Positions 57,106-63,547 of a stretch of 64,000 bases of DNA are shown in pieces. The notes beneath the pieces were generated by a model, which saw only the letters and a list, made by a program, of their open reading frames with translations, was not told the DNA's origin and did not search any database. Where the stretch lies: positions 1-64,000 of the forward strand of contig CACZZB010000007.1 of the NCBI GenBank assembly GCA_902785555.1, given 5' to 3'. The translations under genes and the position numbers were made by a program. The stretch is from an uncultured Ruminococcus sp. Lineage in GTDB: Bacteria > Bacillota > Clostridia > Oscillospirales > Acutalibacteraceae. Within the stretch, counting starts at the first letter, position 1; each line of letters opens with the position of its first letter.

Positions 57106-57669
57106 TTATTTTTTCTTGTCAAATTCGGGATTAAAGGCATAGAAATTTTTACTGTCAAGTTTATCTGTCAATATTCTTAAACTTTCTCCGAACCTTTGGT
57201 AATGAACTACCTCCCTTGCACGCAAAAATCTTATTGGATCTATTACATCAGGGTCATCGCAAAATCTCAGAATATTATCATAAGTTGTTCTCGCCTTTTG
57301 CTCAGCCGCAAGGTCTTCATGCAAATCGGTAATAGGATCTCCTTTTACCTGCATAAATGCCGCCGTATAAGGAACTCCACTGCTTGATGACGGATATACA
57401 CCTGTGGTATGGTCAACGAAATATGAATCAAATCCGGATTTTTTTATTTCATCCATTGTAAGATTTTTAGTAAGCTGATAAACAATTGTTCCAATCATTT
57501 CAAGATGTGCAAGTTCTTCTGTTCCTATATCAGTCAAAACAGCCTTTATTTCGGGATACGGTACGGAATATCTTTGACTTAAATATCTCAACGATGCACC
57601 TAACTCTCCGTCAGGTCCTCCATACTCCAAAAAGATATACTTTTCAGATATAGAAAAATATCTCGACAT
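57106..57669 (-). CDS. cotJC: CotJC-like manganese catalase, 5'-truncated at an element junction
   Basis: The 193-codon frame reaches back to a TTG at 57687, and an ATG lies at 57669. Homology to CotJC starts only at about SEKYIFLEYGGPDGELGASL; the usual N-terminus (MWIYEKKLQYPV-type, about 20 residues) is gone and is replaced by sequence that is the end of a serine recombinase gene in another frame. Downstream features are intact: GTEELAHLEMIG, HEDLAAEQKARTTYDNI and REVVHYQRFGE carry dimanganese ligands. CotJC is a spore-coat catalase. I infer that a mobile element sits in the gene, splitting it; the missing 5' part should be beyond the window. Confidence 0.82.
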   Translation of the reverse strand: MSRYFSISEKYIFLEYGGPDGELGASLRYLSQRYSVPYPEIKAVLTDIGTEELAHLEMIGTIVYQLTKNLTMDEIKKSGFDSYFVDHTTGVYPSSSSGVPYTAAFMQVKGDPITDLHEDLAAEQKARTTYDNILRFCDDPDVIDPIRFLRAREVVHYQRFGESLRILTDKLDSKNFYAFNPEFDKKK

Positions 57670-59038
57670 CACACTTTGAACGGTCAAAAATGATACGCCT
57701 GATAAATGATTTCAGCATGGTATTCTTTGTTTCCTCGGGCATGGCAGGCGATTTCATCAACGGCATGAATTCTATTGCCTTTTTATGAAATTCCTGTATA
57801 AGTACCTGCTTATCGTCAATTTCTGACTGCTGTGCATGGAGTTTTTCTTCAAGTTCGGATATCTTATTCCTTACACTGTCACGGCTCTGCCTATATTCCT
57901 CAAGAGTGTAAACACCGTTTTCATAAGCGTCTTTGATACGTTCCAATTTCTTTTCTTCTCTCGATATCAGCAGAGGGATATTTTCATCCGATTTTTTCTC
58001 GGATGTGAATTCCATATTGAATTCAGAATTTTCTATGCACCTGTCGATAGTTTCTATGACAAGAGCATTTATTTTTTTCAGGCTGATGCTGTGCGACTCA
58101 TTGCATTTGCCATGAGCATACGCATAGCACTGCAAAGATGTATGATTCACTGCCATACACAATGTCGCTCCGCACGCTGAACATCTGACCAATCCCTGCA
58201 ACATGAAAGGCTCTTTTGCCGAACCCTCCCGCATATATCTGACAGTATTTTTATTCAATCTTTTCTGCACCTCGTCAAATATTTCCTGTGAAATTATCGG
58301 CTCATGTGTACCGTCTATGATAAGCGTATCTTTATTATCCTTGCGGTGATTTGCCTTTCCTGTCGGTGTCCAGCGAATTTTACCGATATATACGGGATTT
58401 TTCAGCATATATCTTATAGTCCTGTTCTCAAACTTATTTCCACGTCTTGTACGATAGCCGTTTTCATTGAGTTCCCTTGCAATAGTGACAAGTCCTTTGC
58501 CGTCAAGAAAATCCGCAAATATATTCTTAACAACAGGGGCTGTTTCAGGATTGGGAACATACTTTCCGTCAATAATATCATATCCGAATGACGGTATTGT
58601 AACCGCCTCTCCCCTATTCGCTTTCTCATTCATGCCACGCCTGACTTCTTCACCGAGATTTATCGAATAATACTCGTCCATAGCTTCTATCATGGCTTCC
58701 ATGATGACCGACATTATAACGTCAATACCGCACTGTTTTCGGAGCATGGATTTATAGACAATGCTGTCCTCACGGTTTCGGGCGAAACGGCTGAATTTCC
58801 ATAGAAGAATAGCGTCAAAAGGTTTGGGCTTTGTTTTGGCAATGCCAATCATTTTGTTAAAAGCAGGTCTTTTGGCGGTAGTTCTGCCCGATATTCCCTC
58901 GTCAATGAAGATGTATTCGCTTGGAAGAATATAACCGTTTTTCTTGGCGTATTCCTGTATTTTTTCAAGCTGAGAGCTTGGAGAATATTCTATTTGGTCG
59001 TCAGTCGATACTCTTATATATGCCGCTGCTGTTTTCAT
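57644..59038 (-). CDS. Large serine recombinase
   Basis: 464 residues. The catalytic domain opens AAYIRVSTDDQIEYSPSSQL with the nucleophile Ser, and LLWKFSRFARNRED holds the conserved Arg pair. A recombinase domain and a zinc ribbon (CSACGATLC, QCYAYAHGKC) follow, then a coiled coil. Between CGIDVIM and EAMDEYY about 13 residues that family members have seem to be missing, which may weaken activity. Its stop overlaps the truncated cotJC, as expected for an integrase next to attL. It probably integrates or excises the element. Confidence 0.85.
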   Translation of the reverse strand: MKTAAAYIRVSTDDQIEYSPSSQLEKIQEYAKKNGYILPSEYIFIDEGISGRTTAKRPAFNKMIGIAKTKPKPFDAILLWKFSRFARNREDSIVYKSMLRKQCGIDVIMSVIMEAMIEAMDEYYSINLGEEVRRGMNEKANRGEAVTIPSFGYDIIDGKYVPNPETAPVVKNIFADFLDGKGLVTIARELNENGYRTRRGNKFENRTIRYMLKNPVYIGKIRWTPTGKANHRKDNKDTLIIDGTHEPIISQEIFDEVQKRLNKNTVRYMREGSAKEPFMLQGLVRCSACGATLCMAVNHTSLQCYAYAHGKCNESHSISLKKINALVIETIDRCIENSEFNMEFTSEKKSDENIPLLISREEKKLERIKDAYENGVYTLEEYRQSRDSVRNKISELEEKLHAQQSEIDDKQVLIQEFHKKAIEFMPLMKSPAMPEETKNTMLKSFIRRIIFDRSKCDVEIFFYI

Positions 59039-59131: not shown

Positions 59132-59836
59132 TTAAGTGATATTACAAAGTTTATCTCTGCTGTTGTTGCCAATTTGACCTGTCCTCGTAATCTTTCCGTC
59201 AATATGTAAATTCAAACTGTCTTTAATTGGATGGCGAAGAGGATCTAATATAAAATCAATACCCTCTCTTCTGGCATATTTTGCAGCAGGAACAAAATCG
59301 CTGTCACCGGCAATCAAAACGATTTGATTAACAAGTCTCTTGAAAGCTAATGATGCTATATCAAGACCAATACGCATATCAACACCTTTTTGCTGAATAT
59401 CCAAAATCAAGTCACTTTCAGTTATATCGGTTACAACTAAATCGCCTTTCAAAAGTTTTTTGGTTATTTCGGGTTTAAGGTTATAACTTGCATTGCTATC
59501 AGATAATTCACCCATACGAAGAGCAACTTTTCGTTGTTCCGAAAGTGCCTTGAAAAAGTCGTTCGTCCAAGTATATTGAGGAGTTTTTCCAAGATTGACA
59601 CTTCTTTGTGTTATTGGATTGTAAATCGTTTTTTTAGATGGCTCGCAATCGTAATAGAATATACGATATAACCTTTTTTCCTCTCCTGGAAAATCGGGCT
59701 GTAAATGTCTGAAACAATACGTTATCAATTCTTCTGCTCTTTCCTGTGGTGTTTTTTCTCCAAATAATTTTTTTGCTTGCTTTCGGTAAAAGCCACCATC
59801 AACTAATATTGCAGTTATTGTATCCAATTTTATCAC
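59132..59836 (-). CDS. NYN-domain (LabA/PIN-like) nuclease
   Basis: 234 residues from a GTG at 59836. LVDGGFYRKQ, VDMRIGLDIASLA and IAGDSDFVPAAKYA supply the four acidic residues of a NYN ribonuclease site. NYN proteins cut RNA in the cytoplasm and some take part in phage defence. A hairpin in its leader (59860-59905) and an operator-like palindrome (59925-59939) lie upstream. Confidence 0.82.
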   Translation of the reverse strand: MIKLDTITAILVDGGFYRKQAKKLFGEKTPQERAEELITYCFRHLQPDFPGEEKRLYRIFYYDCEPSKKTIYNPITQRSVNLGKTPQYTWTNDFFKALSEQRKVALRMGELSDSNASYNLKPEITKKLLKGDLVVTDITESDLILDIQQKGVDMRIGLDIASLAFKRLVNQIVLIAGDSDFVPAAKYARREGIDFILDPLRHPIKDSLNLHIDGKITRTGQIGNNSRDKLCNIT

Positions 59837-59859
59837 ATTCCCTTACAAAAAAATAAAAA

Positions 59860-59905
59860 CCTTGACATCGTAACTTCCCGTATGGTGGGAGAACTACTGT
59901 CAAGG
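59860..59905 (-). terminator. Leader hairpin of the NYN gene, possible attenuator
   Basis: CCTTGACA (59860-59867) pairs with TGTCAAGG (59898-59905) around an inner CTTCCC/GGGAG stem. On the minus strand it is followed by a T tract, 24 nt before the NYN start. It could terminate early; a short motif in it also occurs in the RNA at 8215-8348. Confidence 0.6.
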
Positions 59906-59924
59906 CTTGGTTAAACAATATAAG

Positions 59925-59974
59925 AGTAGTTAAACTACTAATATATATTATGCACCTTTAACAGCAAAAATCAA
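59925..59974 (-). promoter_or_regulatory. NYN promoter and operator-like palindrome
   Basis: On the minus strand TTGATT (59974-59969) and TAATAT (59950-59945) are 18 bases apart. A palindrome AGTAGT-TAA-ACTACT (59925-59939) lies at the start of transcription and may bind a regulator. Confidence 0.5.
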
Positions 59975-60070
59975 TCATATTTTCAAAATTGTAACTATTT
60001 TTATACATATTGTTTAAAAAATATAACAATAATTACATAAAATAAGTCACTTTTTATATCATTTCCCATG

Positions 60071-60145
60071 CTGTTTTCACAAAATCACTCCTTGTATAAA
60101 TATATTCCCTGTCGTTTCAAAAAAATCGACAGGAATTTTTTTGCC
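60071..60145. repeat. Second copy of the recombinase leader
   Basis: This copy keeps the hairpin TTCCTGTCGA/CGACAGGGAA and the start region encoding MKTA from a GTG near 60076 on the minus strand, then diverges and stops. It looks like the leftover 5' end of another recombinase gene. The NYN gene lies between the copies. Confidence 0.65.
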
Positions 60146-60197
60146 TATTCCATTATACCACTTCCCGTTACTCAGCGAAAGAGTAATGGGGATTTTT

Positions 60198-61568
60198 TTA
60201 TTGATTCAAAGATAAAGATTGATTATACTGTTCAGCCAAAGCTGTCATTTTAAATTCAGCAGATGGTTCTATTTGATGAACAATGTGTTCTATCTCATTG
60301 ATATCAACAGCGAAGAATTCTTTACGTTTGTTAATCTTATTAACACGCTTACTATCTAAAATCTTGTGCATACGGTTTTCAAGTTCAACTGCATTTGAAG
60401 AAAATATAAAGCTATGTACATCAAACGGGAAAGGTACACTTGCATTTCCCAGTTCATCAATTCTGTCTTGAGGTTCATCACGTCTGGTCATGCCGACTTT
60501 GAATACATTTTTACCGAAAGAACCGATATTACTGATGATATAGACATATCCAGCCTGACCGTTTTGCAGATTGATAATTTTTTCCTTGCGTTCATCAATT
60601 TTATTAAGCTGTTCTGTGAGTTCCTGCAAACGCTTTTTAAGGGCCTCGACTTCATTTTGATTTGAAGTTGAAATAGCTATTTTAACATTTTCGATTTCGT
60701 TTTTATATTTATTTTCTTCTTTTTCAAGTTTTTTCTGTTGCTGTTCAAGAGCCTTGCGTTCCTCTACCTCCTGACGCATCTGTTCTTTTAATGCACGCTG
60801 TTCTTCTTTGATTTTTTCCTTTTGGGTGTAGTACTCATATTCAATGTCAATAGCCTCTAAATATAAAATTTCAATTTCAGATATGAATTTTTTGACCGTT
60901 GGTGCTATGCTCTGATTCCCGTTAGAGGATATTGCATAATATTTTTGAGTAATTTCTTTAATTTTGGACTTTGCTTTGTCAACAGTACCGAATTTAAGAT
61001 TTATAAGAACATTCTGCAATTCAGCTTCCAAACCAATAACCATTAACTGATATATAGCCTGATTGCTTTTTGTGGTATATCTTTCTTCATATTTTTGAAT
61101 AACCTTTTTGATATTGGTTTTATTTGCACTTACAAGCTTACGGAGAGCCGGAACATCAAGACAATTAAGGTGCATATCGGAAATATGAGTCATCAAAGAA
61201 GCTGCATTAATTATAAGTTTAGGAGCATCAGCGGCATTTGTATTATCAGCTTTCATAGCTTTTTGGGCAGCTTTCAGTGCAGTGTCAGAGGTTTTTATTT
61301 TTAGCTGTAATTCCTGCAAATCTTTGTTCAAAGTTTCCTTTTGATTGACCAAATTGGATATTTCATTTTTTAAATTATTGAGAGTTTCACCGCTGATTGT
61401 TTTTGACAGGTCGTGATAAGACGCACTCAAAGTATTGTATTTTCGATTAGATGAATCCACTTCATTACGAAGATTAACATTTGCCGCTGTCAATTCTTCA
61501 ACTCTCTTTTTCAGTTCTTCATTTTCAGACTTTATCTGACCGACTTTTAAAAAATCAAATATTCCCAT
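60198..61568 (-). CDS. DUF4041 / T5orf172 (GIY-YIG-like) protein
   Basis: About 456 residues from an ATG at 61568. A long N-terminal coiled coil (10-110) leads to a DUF4041 domain (about 115-260) and another coiled coil, then a C-terminal T5orf172 domain (about 350-430): GYVYIISNIGSFGKNVFKVG, MTRRDEPQDRIDELGNASVP and AVELENRMHKILDSKRVNK. This GIY-YIG-related domain occurs in phages and mobile elements; its nuclease role is not proven. Confidence 0.85.
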   Translation of the reverse strand: MGIFDFLKVGQIKSENEELKKRVEELTAANVNLRNEVDSSNRKYNTLSASYHDLSKTISGETLNNLKNEISNLVNQKETLNKDLQELQLKIKTSDTALKAAQKAMKADNTNAADAPKLIINAASLMTHISDMHLNCLDVPALRKLVSANKTNIKKVIQKYEERYTTKSNQAIYQLMVIGLEAELQNVLINLKFGTVDKAKSKIKEITQKYYAISSNGNQSIAPTVKKFISEIEILYLEAIDIEYEYYTQKEKIKEEQRALKEQMRQEVEERKALEQQQKKLEKEENKYKNEIENVKIAISTSNQNEVEALKKRLQELTEQLNKIDERKEKIINLQNGQAGYVYIISNIGSFGKNVFKVGMTRRDEPQDRIDELGNASVPFPFDVHSFIFSSNAVELENRMHKILDSKRVNKINKRKEFFAVDINEIEHIVHQIEPSAEFKMTALAEQYNQSLSLNQ

Positions 61569-61589
61569 TTTTATCAACCTTTCATGTTT

Positions 61590-62513
61590 TTATTTCTTTA
61601 TCAGCAAACCGTTACCGTCAGTGAATTGACCTTTGGCTATTTTAACAATATCAGAAATCCAGCCAATGTAAAGCAGTCCTACTGTAAATATATATAAAAC
61701 ACCCGAAGCATTTTTTCCGACATAAAATCTGTGTATCCCTATATATCCCAAGAATATTGCAAGTATAAGCGTTATCCATTTGCTTTTATTGCTTATTCCT
61801 GTCCTTTGACAACTATGATTATTAGTGTGAATATTTCTGTTATTATTGACATCTTGAATATCACATTGAATAACAAGCGGTTTGGCAATTATTTTCATAG
61901 TTGATATTGCTTTTGTCGGATATTCAAGTTTTGAATGGCAATAAGGACAAAAACCGCTTCCGTTATTCACTTCGGCTTTACAGTTCTTGCACTGTACAGT
62001 AATAGTTTCATTTTCATTTGGTTTGAAAGTGGCTGATTTATAGTTTGTTTCTATATAATCAATATTTTCACTATTCATAAGATTATAGTACGTCTGCAAG
62101 CTCTGATAAAATTTTTCATATTTGTTGAGCTTTCCTTTATCTGTTTTCATATTGTCAGCCTGTTTTTTTGTATCACTGAAATATCTTGATAAAAAGATAA
62201 GAGTTTGTTCCTGTTTAGATGCCTGTAATTTATCAAGTTCAGAAGAAGGTTTGTTTCTTTTGAATTTTATGTAAGGTTCAAATAAAGACAGAATACCCAA
62301 ATTTTCTTCAATAAGTTCATAGCGTGAAAAGAAAACGTCAGGTTTTACGGTATTATTAACAAGCTGTACGCTTTCATTGACAATAGTTAAATATCTTTGT
62401 GCCTGAGGATAAGCCATTTTTAGAAGTTGCTGTTCAGAATAAACAAGTTTATTTGGTGGATTATCCACGACCATTCTTTGCAGAGTAAGAAGCTCTTTTG
62501 AATTAAAGCTCAT
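61590..62513 (-). CDS. Zinc-ribbon TM2-domain membrane protein
   Basis: About 307 residues from an ATG at 62513 (AAAGGTG upstream). A soluble N-terminal part (1-200), a zinc ribbon (CKNCKAEVNNGSGFCPYC) and a C-terminal TM2 pair (ILAIFLGYIGIHRFYVGK, VGLLYIGWISDIV). Common in mobile elements; function unknown. It overlaps the upstream XRE gene's end region by spacing of a few nt. Confidence 0.75.
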   Translation of the reverse strand: MSFNSKELLTLQRMVVDNPPNKLVYSEQQLLKMAYPQAQRYLTIVNESVQLVNNTVKPDVFFSRYELIEENLGILSLFEPYIKFKRNKPSSELDKLQASKQEQTLIFLSRYFSDTKKQADNMKTDKGKLNKYEKFYQSLQTYYNLMNSENIDYIETNYKSATFKPNENETITVQCKNCKAEVNNGSGFCPYCHSKLEYPTKAISTMKIIAKPLVIQCDIQDVNNNRNIHTNNHSCQRTGISNKSKWITLILAIFLGYIGIHRFYVGKNASGVLYIFTVGLLYIGWISDIVKIAKGQFTDGNGLLIKK

Positions 62514-62526
62514 TTTCATCACCTTT

Positions 62527-62910
62527 TCATTTCTTATTTTTAACATACTGCATGACATCAACCTTGTCGTCAAAGTCAAGTTGCTCAAACTTCTGTATAA
62601 ACTGCTCCGTCAGTGTATCCTTTTTATTATCAGCGGCATTGACACTTATACTGTTGTTGCCTGTAAGGCTTGTTTGTTTGTTATCTGTTACACTTATGCT
62701 TGTTTCACGAGGATTATCTGTCCTACCAAGCAAATAGTCAGCAGATACATCAAAATAATCTGCTATTTTTCTCAAAGATTCAGGATTTATATTCCCTTTT
62801 TTCCAAGTTGACAAGTTACCTTTACTTCCTGTAATTTCTACACACAATTTTGTGATAGAAATATTATTTTTTTGACAAAGACTTTCTAATCTTTCATACA
62901 TAAGATTCAC
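62527..62910 (-). CDS. XRE-family repressor (CI-like)
   Basis: 127 residues. Helix-turn-helix at about 10-65 (ISITKLCVEITGSKGNLSTW, then ADYFDVSADYLLGR). AAAAGG precedes the ATG. It is divergent from the regulator at 63335 and probably binds the operator at 62997-63014. No autocleavage domain, so it is not a LexA-like CI. Confidence 0.85.
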   Translation of the reverse strand: MNLMYERLESLCQKNNISITKLCVEITGSKGNLSTWKKGNINPESLRKIADYFDVSADYLLGRTDNPRETSISVTDNKQTSLTGNNSISVNAADNKKDTLTEQFIQKFEQLDFDDKVDVMQYVKNKK

Positions 62911-62990: not shown

Positions 62991-63019
62991 TTGACAAGTG
63001 CAGTATTTTGCACTATAAT
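62991..63019 (+). promoter_or_regulatory. Consensus promoter with operator in its spacer
   Basis: TTGACA (62991-62996), exactly 17 bases, TATAAT (63014-63019): a full sigma-A consensus. The spacer carries the palindrome AGTGCA-GTATTT-TGCACT (62997-63014). A half-site AAGTGC lies at 62965-62970. It would fire strongly rightward when the XRE repressor is absent. Confidence 0.85.
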
Positions 63020-63040: not shown

Positions 63041-63208
63041 CGGCGAGACCCCTATGGGGTGTGGGAGTTGCAATGCGTGGACGAGTGACAGAAGTTATTT
63101 TAATCACGTTTCCGTCCCCTATGGGGAATGGATGTTGCAACCGGACGTTCCACCCGAAACGGAAGAATGCCAAAATTTTTGTCCCCTACGGGAAACAGCG
63201 AGCTTGGT
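63041..63208 (+). CRISPR. Degenerate mini CRISPR-like array, three repeats and two 33-nt spacers
   Basis: Repeat 1 63041-63074, repeat 2 63108-63141, repeat 3 63175-63208, each 34 nt with a core CCCCTATGGGG or CCCCTACGGG hairpin; repeats 1 and 2 end GTTGCAA(T/C). Repeat 1 differs at its 5' end and repeat 3 at its 3' end. Both spacers are exactly 33 nt (63075-63107 and 63142-63174). No cas gene is in the window. It starts about 15 nt after the predicted start of the 62991 promoter. Confidence 0.55.
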
Positions 63209-63241
63209 ACACTCGTAGTCGTTTATGTTCCTGATGAAAAA

Positions 63242-63294
63242 AGTATATGATTGTAGTTATAATTCTGTCTTACTATAATCGTATACTATTTTTC
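63242..63294 (+). terminator. Long AT-rich inverted repeat
   Basis: AGTATATGATTGTAGT (63242-63257) pairs with ACTATAATCGTATACT (63272-63287), with a few mismatches, then ATTTTTC. It may end the CRISPR-like transcript or act as an operator. Confidence 0.45.
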
Positions 63295-63334
63295 AGCAAA
63301 TGTCAATAAGTTTTCTTATATTTCACAAAAGGGG

Positions 63335-63547
63335 GTGTTTGAGATAGACTTTGCAGATAATCTGAGAGTATTAAGATTAAAAAAGCAGTTTACTCAAAAA
63401 GAACTTGCTGAACTTGTTGGAGTAGCCCAACCCGCAATAGCCGATTACGAATCAGGCAAATATAAGCCTAAATTTGACGTTGCAACGAGGCTCGCAAAAA
63501 TTTTTGATGTGACCGTTGAAACACTCTACAGCGGTCAGACGGAGTGA
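63335..63547 (+). CDS. XRE-family regulator, short Cro-like
   Basis: 70 residues. Helix-turn-helix QKELAELVGVAQPAIADYES. GTG at 63335 directly follows GGGG, so the start is not certain. It is divergent from the XRE repressor and probably the opposing switch. Confidence 0.75.
   Translation: MFEIDFADNLRVLRLKKQFTQKELAELVGVAQPAIADYESGKYKPKFDVATRLAKIFDVTVETLYSGQTE

Follow-up and report, generated by a model that had tools for sequence, protein, structure and literature searches.

What can a CRISPR array of only two spacers do for a prophage whose host has no visible effector for it? The question arises in a rumen Ruminococcus genome (2.83 Mb, 99% complete), of which we analysed bases 1-64000 of the 111-kb contig C7, in the following called the window. 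A sequence-only reading had described positions 63041-63208 as a phage-type mini-array without cas genes under a repressed consensus promoter, which might either target rival phages or act as an anti-CRISPR RNA. We consider it fairly probable that the locus is a cas-free type III-A mini-array, linked to lysogeny, that borrows Csm complexes of the host to exclude sibling phages.

Prophage setting and array geometry

The array is carried by a tailed-phage prophage and lies between divergent regulator genes (Table 1). Early, packaging, head and tail genes follow 3' of the Cro-like gene up to ~95 kb of contig C7; terminase, portal and tape measure are among them. The interval between integrase and repressor gene (window 59132-62588) contains genes for NYN-domain, T5orf172-domain and TM2-domain proteins, a possible accessory or defence block. 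Within the structural gene block, on the minus strand at C7:86550-87061 (L175:6550-7061), two small genes resemble, by eye, a BrnT/BrnA toxin-antitoxin pair.

Table 1. Features of the lysogeny region. Positions are those of the window; repeat and spacer sequences are given in crRNA sense.
Feature	Position	Strand	Remark
Prophage integrase (large serine recombinase)	57644..59038	-	
CI-like HTH repressor gene	62527..62910	-	follows the array in crRNA sense
Plus promoter TTGACA-17-TATAAT (P_R-like)	62991..63019	+	12/12 consensus match
R1, leader-distal repeat	63041..63074	-	5' half and stem intact, handle lost
Spacer 1	63075..63107	-	GTGATTAAAATAACTTCTGTCACTCGTCCACGC
R2, complete type III-A repeat	63108..63141	-	GTTGCAACATCCATTCCCCATAGGGGACGGAAAC, handle ACGGAAAC
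Spacer 2	63142..63174	-	TTTGGCATTCTTCCGTTTCGGGTGGAACGTCCG
R3, leader-side repeat	63175..63208	-	only 3' half recognisable
Inverted repeat, ~23 bp	63232..63293		overlaps the minus promoter
Minus promoter TTGACA-17-TACGAT (P_RM-like), facing the plus promoter	63278..63306	-	conserved
Cro-like HTH gene	63335..63547	+	

The division into three degenerate 34-nt repeats and two 33-nt spacers, already recognised by the sequence-only reading, was borne out, with an exact period of 67 nt. What remains of R3 is the stem CCC-GTA-GGGG and a degenerate handle, ACAAAAAT. An 8-nt handle of the ACGGAAAC/ACGAAAC type is thus intact before spacer 1 and degenerate before spacer 2. The end of R2, ACGGAAAC, is the handle known for the III-A system of S. 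thermophilus. The loss of the handle in R1 resembles the terminal repeats of chromosomal arrays in relatives.

Repeat family and cas genes

A BLAST search with the array region against 98 relatives gave weak matches with a period of 66-67 nt, which proved to be true CRISPR arrays. A pattern search then detected such repeats in 8 genomes, that of the window's host included, out of 64 examined from the genus; their consensus in crRNA sense is GTTGCAACTCACACGCCCCATAGGGGACGAAAC. A covariance model was built from ten chromosomal III-A repeats of the genus, with the window sequence excluded. In the 216 kb searched, its E-values were 4.2e-8 for R2 and 9.8e-5 for R1, both on the same strand, and the repeat of a prophage in another Ruminococcus genome (G025) was matched at E=3e-5. 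R3 alone is not significant with this model and is supported by its position, which keeps the exact 67-nt register with respect to R2. As to the type, the repeat adjoins the gene set Cas10-Csm2-Csm3-Csm4-Csm5-Cas6 on the 3' side of this set in G100:C294, and in G022:C131 two repeats lie beside Cas10/Csm3, with Cas10 after them. Judged by their sequence, the prophage repeats are degenerate type III-A CRISPR repeats, homologous, though not identical, to the chromosomal repeats of the genus.

The comparison with host arrays that had been suggested earlier gave a divided answer: many such arrays exist in the genus, whereas no further copy of the array repeat occurs elsewhere in the host genome. 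Scans of IMG/VR with the repeat patterns and a blastn search of the array locus against phages and plasmids gave no match.

That the units are a chance set of hairpins is excluded by the E-values of R2 and R1 and by the folding of the minus-strand array transcript, which is no better than that of shuffles (z=-0.14). For this reason structured RNA was also rejected as the source of the signal; the z of -3.8 on the plus strand stems from a stretch that includes the inverted repeat at 63232-63293. The array signal lies in repeat sequence and spacer homology, not in folding. In Rfam, CRISPR-DR families matched the R2 stretch below threshold, and matches to miRNA families were dismissed as chance.

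Inspection of the prophage ORFs revealed no evident cas gene, as the sequence-only reading had stated, and the host genome gave no match to Cas1 or RAMP (Csm-type) families. Cas1 and RAMP matches were likewise absent from the G025 genome, at 86% completeness. RAMP genes were present in 5 of the 8 genomes tested. The array has no visible effector in its present host, so that any action of it would be confined to those members of the genus that are csm-positive. III-A genes or arrays were seen in the incomplete genomes G013, G022, G026 and G100, where Cas1 was not detected; the sole Cas1 found, in G010:C116, is part of another system, whose repeat differs.

Reading direction and facing promoters

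Chromosomal arrays of the genus have their leader, which contains a TTGACA-17-TATAAT promoter, on the GTTGCAAC side, and their terminal repeat lacks the handle. Applied to the prophage, this rule makes the minus strand the crRNA strand and R1 the distal end of the array. The consensus promoter described by the sequence-only reading does exist, and with it an operator-like site: an inverted repeat, GTGCAGTATTTTGCAC (GTGCA-N6-TGCAC, 62998-63013), lies inside the spacer of the plus promoter and is likely its operator. In the related rumen phage L092, TTGACAAGTGCGTTTTTTTGCACTATAAT is found at the place of this inverted repeat. The array, however, is not under the control that had been assumed, since with the crRNA sense on the minus strand the plus promoter would make the antisense of the crRNAs. 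It is the facing minus promoter that would read the array in crRNA sense and then the repressor gene. Located between the two promoters, the array would be included in the repressor mRNA as part of its leader. The inverted repeat that overlaps the minus promoter is probably an operator too.

The minus promoter is kept as TTGAC[AT]-17-TACGAT, with the same spacing and -10, in a second prophage of the host genome (G000:C34), in G025 and in G045:C22. Phages L092 and L093 have a facing TTGACA-17-TATAAT or TTGACT-17-TATACT at the corresponding place. Facing promoters are therefore the ground plan of this lysogeny switch; in L092, L093 and G045:C22 they occur without an array. In the G025 prophage a plus promoter was looked for and none was found. 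The same 60-nt inverted-repeat promoter element is also present 5' of a phosphoglucomutase-like gene (G010:C64:11875-11964; L074:3876-3965), outside any visible lysogeny region.

Related prophages with repeats at the same place

A second array is found in the Ruminococcus prophage G025:C64, at the same place of the lysogeny region. Its single 33-nt spacer is preceded by a 3' half repeat that has the handle and followed by a 5' half repeat that has the stem. The second prophage of the host genome has the same facing-promoter region (G000:C34:12530-12740; L042:3530-3760) and, at the homologous place, a single stem-and-handle trace, CCCATAGGGTACGAA, which is weak when taken alone (covariance model E=2.1). 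The C34 and G025 prophages share the flanking motifs TCATTGAC-TGAGCGATGACGGG ... GCCCCGAGCCGG, which may pair with one another around the repeat.

Possibly, the array is just a passenger or relic, i.e. a fragment of a host array that was captured by recombination and now decays without function. The loss of parts from R1 and R3 and the lack of csm in the present host would be expected then. Yet what has been lost in the two prophages is dispensable for making a crRNA: the leader-side repeat retains stem and handle, and the distal repeat retains its 5' half and stem. Furthermore, R2 is intact, and the two prophages have different spacers at the same site. A functionless relic thus has, in our estimation, only a slight chance of being the right explanation.

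Spacer targets

Targets were searched by a plain Hamming scan of all sequences in the analysis. Besides the array itself, each spacer had one good match. Spacer 1 matches the prophage's own portal gene (C7:76890-76922) with 5 mismatches, and spacer 2 matches the tail-region gene directly after the tape measure gene (C7:89699-89730) with 5 mismatches over 32 nt; both sites lie outside the window. In 1500 dinucleotide shuffles per spacer (3,000 in total) the best matches had 9 (spacer 1) and 8 (spacer 2) mismatches. With 23 chromosomal III-A spacers of the genus, 9 mismatches were the best value; chromosomal III-A spacers do not target this prophage. The guides of both spacers are antisense to the target mRNA. 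The 3' flanks of the targets match the anti-tag at only 1 of 8 positions, which means that type III activation is permitted.

The spacers were also mapped to phage genomes, a check that had been proposed earlier. Among 50,697 phage records, the best match of spacer 1 falls within the portal gene of Streptococcus phage Javan351, where it occupies the orthologous site in the same codon frame (7 mismatches over 33 nt). A perfect protospacer was found neither in IMG/VR (exact 20-mers, both spacers) nor in phages, plasmids (spacer 1) or ~490 related genomes, and blastn of spacer 1 against plasmids gave no match. Portal and tail homologues in the other genomes examined had 8 or more mismatches, so that the exact rival is absent among these genomes. 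Default-word BLAST misses such diverged targets; hence more cases have likely been overlooked. Spacer matches in MT835662 and MT835912 were rejected as chance (12 mismatches over full length), and a likeness of spacer 2 to ribosomal protein L34 was dropped because the spacer matches the tail-region gene in a different frame. Short spacer matches were seen in Chryseobacterium and Sulfolobus viruses.

Eight of the ten differences between spacers and targets fall on codon position 3 (binomial P=0.003), and the encoded peptides, RGRVTEVI[L/F]I and GRSTRNGRM[P/S], hardly change. This indicates that the guides derive from working genes of close relatives. The spacer of the G025 array has its target in a tail-fibre-like gene, with 4 mismatches in G004 and 5 in G011; the copy of G025 itself differs at 8 positions, and that in the prophage of the window at 9. 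The G025 guide therefore fits the tail genes of rival prophages better than its own. The role against rivals that the sequence-only reading had envisaged as possible gains support from this, the spacers matching late genes of the same phage family.

The matches to the prophage's own genes allow another interpretation, in which the guides together with host Csm would destroy leaky late mRNAs of the prophage itself and thereby stabilise lysogeny. Both guides are antisense to own late genes, their 5 mismatches are within the tolerance of III-A (PMC5754349), and expression of the array would be tied to the repressor promoter. However, a guide directed against self should fit the own gene best, which is not the case for G025, and the mostly synonymous differences suggest the gene of a relative as the source of the guides. 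Such a lock on the prophage's own late genes is therefore unlikely.

The spacers would be irrelevant altogether if the repeats served as a decoy that titrates Cas6/Csm and lets the phage escape from host III-A. This would be in line with the degeneration of the repeats and with the apparent, though weak, single repeat at the same place in the C34 prophage of the same genome. Candidates for RNA anti-CRISPRs (Racrs) have been reported for almost all CRISPR types (PMC10651486). Racrs, however, are defined by solitary repeats and not by spacer units. Because the array has two full-length 33-nt spacers with real, non-random targets, the anti-CRISPR RNA role proposed earlier is not favoured at this locus, and we regard it as highly improbable.

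Possible role in sibling exclusion

From the sequence we infer the following course for the exclusion of sibling phages. In a lysogen, the minus promoter on the repressor side would transcribe R3-spacer 2-R2-spacer 1-R1 and then the CI-like gene. If the host possesses a III-A system, its Cas6 would cut after each CCCC-AUA-GGGG stem and release up to two crRNAs, which would be loaded into Cas10-Csm complexes. Both guides are directed, in antisense, against the mRNAs of portal and tail-region genes in close relatives. As soon as an entering relative starts late transcription, Csm would cut the transcripts and activate Cas10, and the sibling would be excluded. During lysogeny the prophage would keep its own late genes silent, and these deviate from the guides in sequence. 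In S. aureus, III-A guides with up to six mismatches still restrict phage, and lysogens pay a lower cost when mismatches are present (PMC5754349). Counting against sibling exclusion are the degeneration of the repeats, which is strong in R3, the absence of Cas1 and RAMP matches from the host genome and from G025, and the lack of a perfect protospacer in the databases and genomes searched.

Type III-A acts only on transcribed targets. The nearest known target of the window's guides is the prophage itself, and with 5 mismatches it is near enough that a III-A attack might still hit it upon induction, a further point against exclusion. At this stage the plus promoter would take over, and its RNA would be perfectly complementary to the guides. 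Transcribed from the plus strand, the array RNA contains the complete anti-tag GTTTCCGT, and by the type III rule a target RNA with a full anti-tag would not activate Cas10. This suggests that the transcript of the lytic promoter could quench the guides on induction. The locus would then combine a lysogeny-gated guide with its antidote, with crRNAs present only in the lysogen and the lytic antisense with its anti-tag sparing the own late mRNAs; we put this forward tentatively, as a conceivable rather than a probable extension.

Comparison with known systems

Mini-arrays directed against relatives are established for archaeal viruses (PMC6858448) and have been reported for phages, without leaders (PMC11656645). 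Like those of SPV1 and SPV2 (Medvedeva et al. 2019, PMC6858448) and the phage mini-arrays reviewed in PMC11656645, the arrays described here are intergenic, have one or two spacers and no cas genes, and combine repeats homologous to those of the host genus with spacers that match related viruses; again, different spacers occupy the same position in related viruses. Unlike these known mini-arrays, the prophage array has a repeat of type III-A, with the handle ACGGAAAC and with csm genes in relatives, and it has no host-like leader, its repeats are degenerate and not identical to those of the host, and it lies between the facing promoters of a lysogeny switch, reading into the repressor gene. 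The assignment to type III-A is based on the repeat adjoining Cas10/Csm in relatives; in the host genome no match to RAMP or Cas1 was found.

With the chromosomal III-A (Csm) arrays of the genus it shares the repeat sequence, the repeat length of 33-34 nt, the period of 65-70 nt, the crRNA orientation and the handle-less terminal repeat. It differs from them in that it is phage-borne, has no leader and no cas genes and contains two spacers. RNA anti-CRISPRs or solitary repeat units (PMC10651486) also are cas-free repeats in prophages near a promoter. A Racr, though, is a solitary repeat without spacer, whereas the prophage array has two full spacers with targets; the solitary form is represented only by the weak C34 trace.

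What is new, compared with the phage mini-arrays on record, is that this one is of type III-A and is placed between the facing promoters of a lysogeny switch. In our literature search, the coverage of which was incomplete, no paper describing a lysogeny switch with a type III-A mini-array was found. If sibling exclusion is true, a bacterial prophage couples CRISPR-guided exclusion to its own lysogeny decision via type III-A, and two forms of superinfection immunity, one based on the repressor and the other on RNA guides, would be linked at one locus. Because III-A depends on transcription, the prophage could then afford guides that closely resemble its own late genes. This is paralleled by the conditional tolerance of prophages by III-A (PMC5754349), where guides likewise are ~5 mismatches away from resident prophage genes and tolerance is expected as long as the targeted genes are silent. 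In that system the guides reside in the host array, whereas here they are supplied by the phage.
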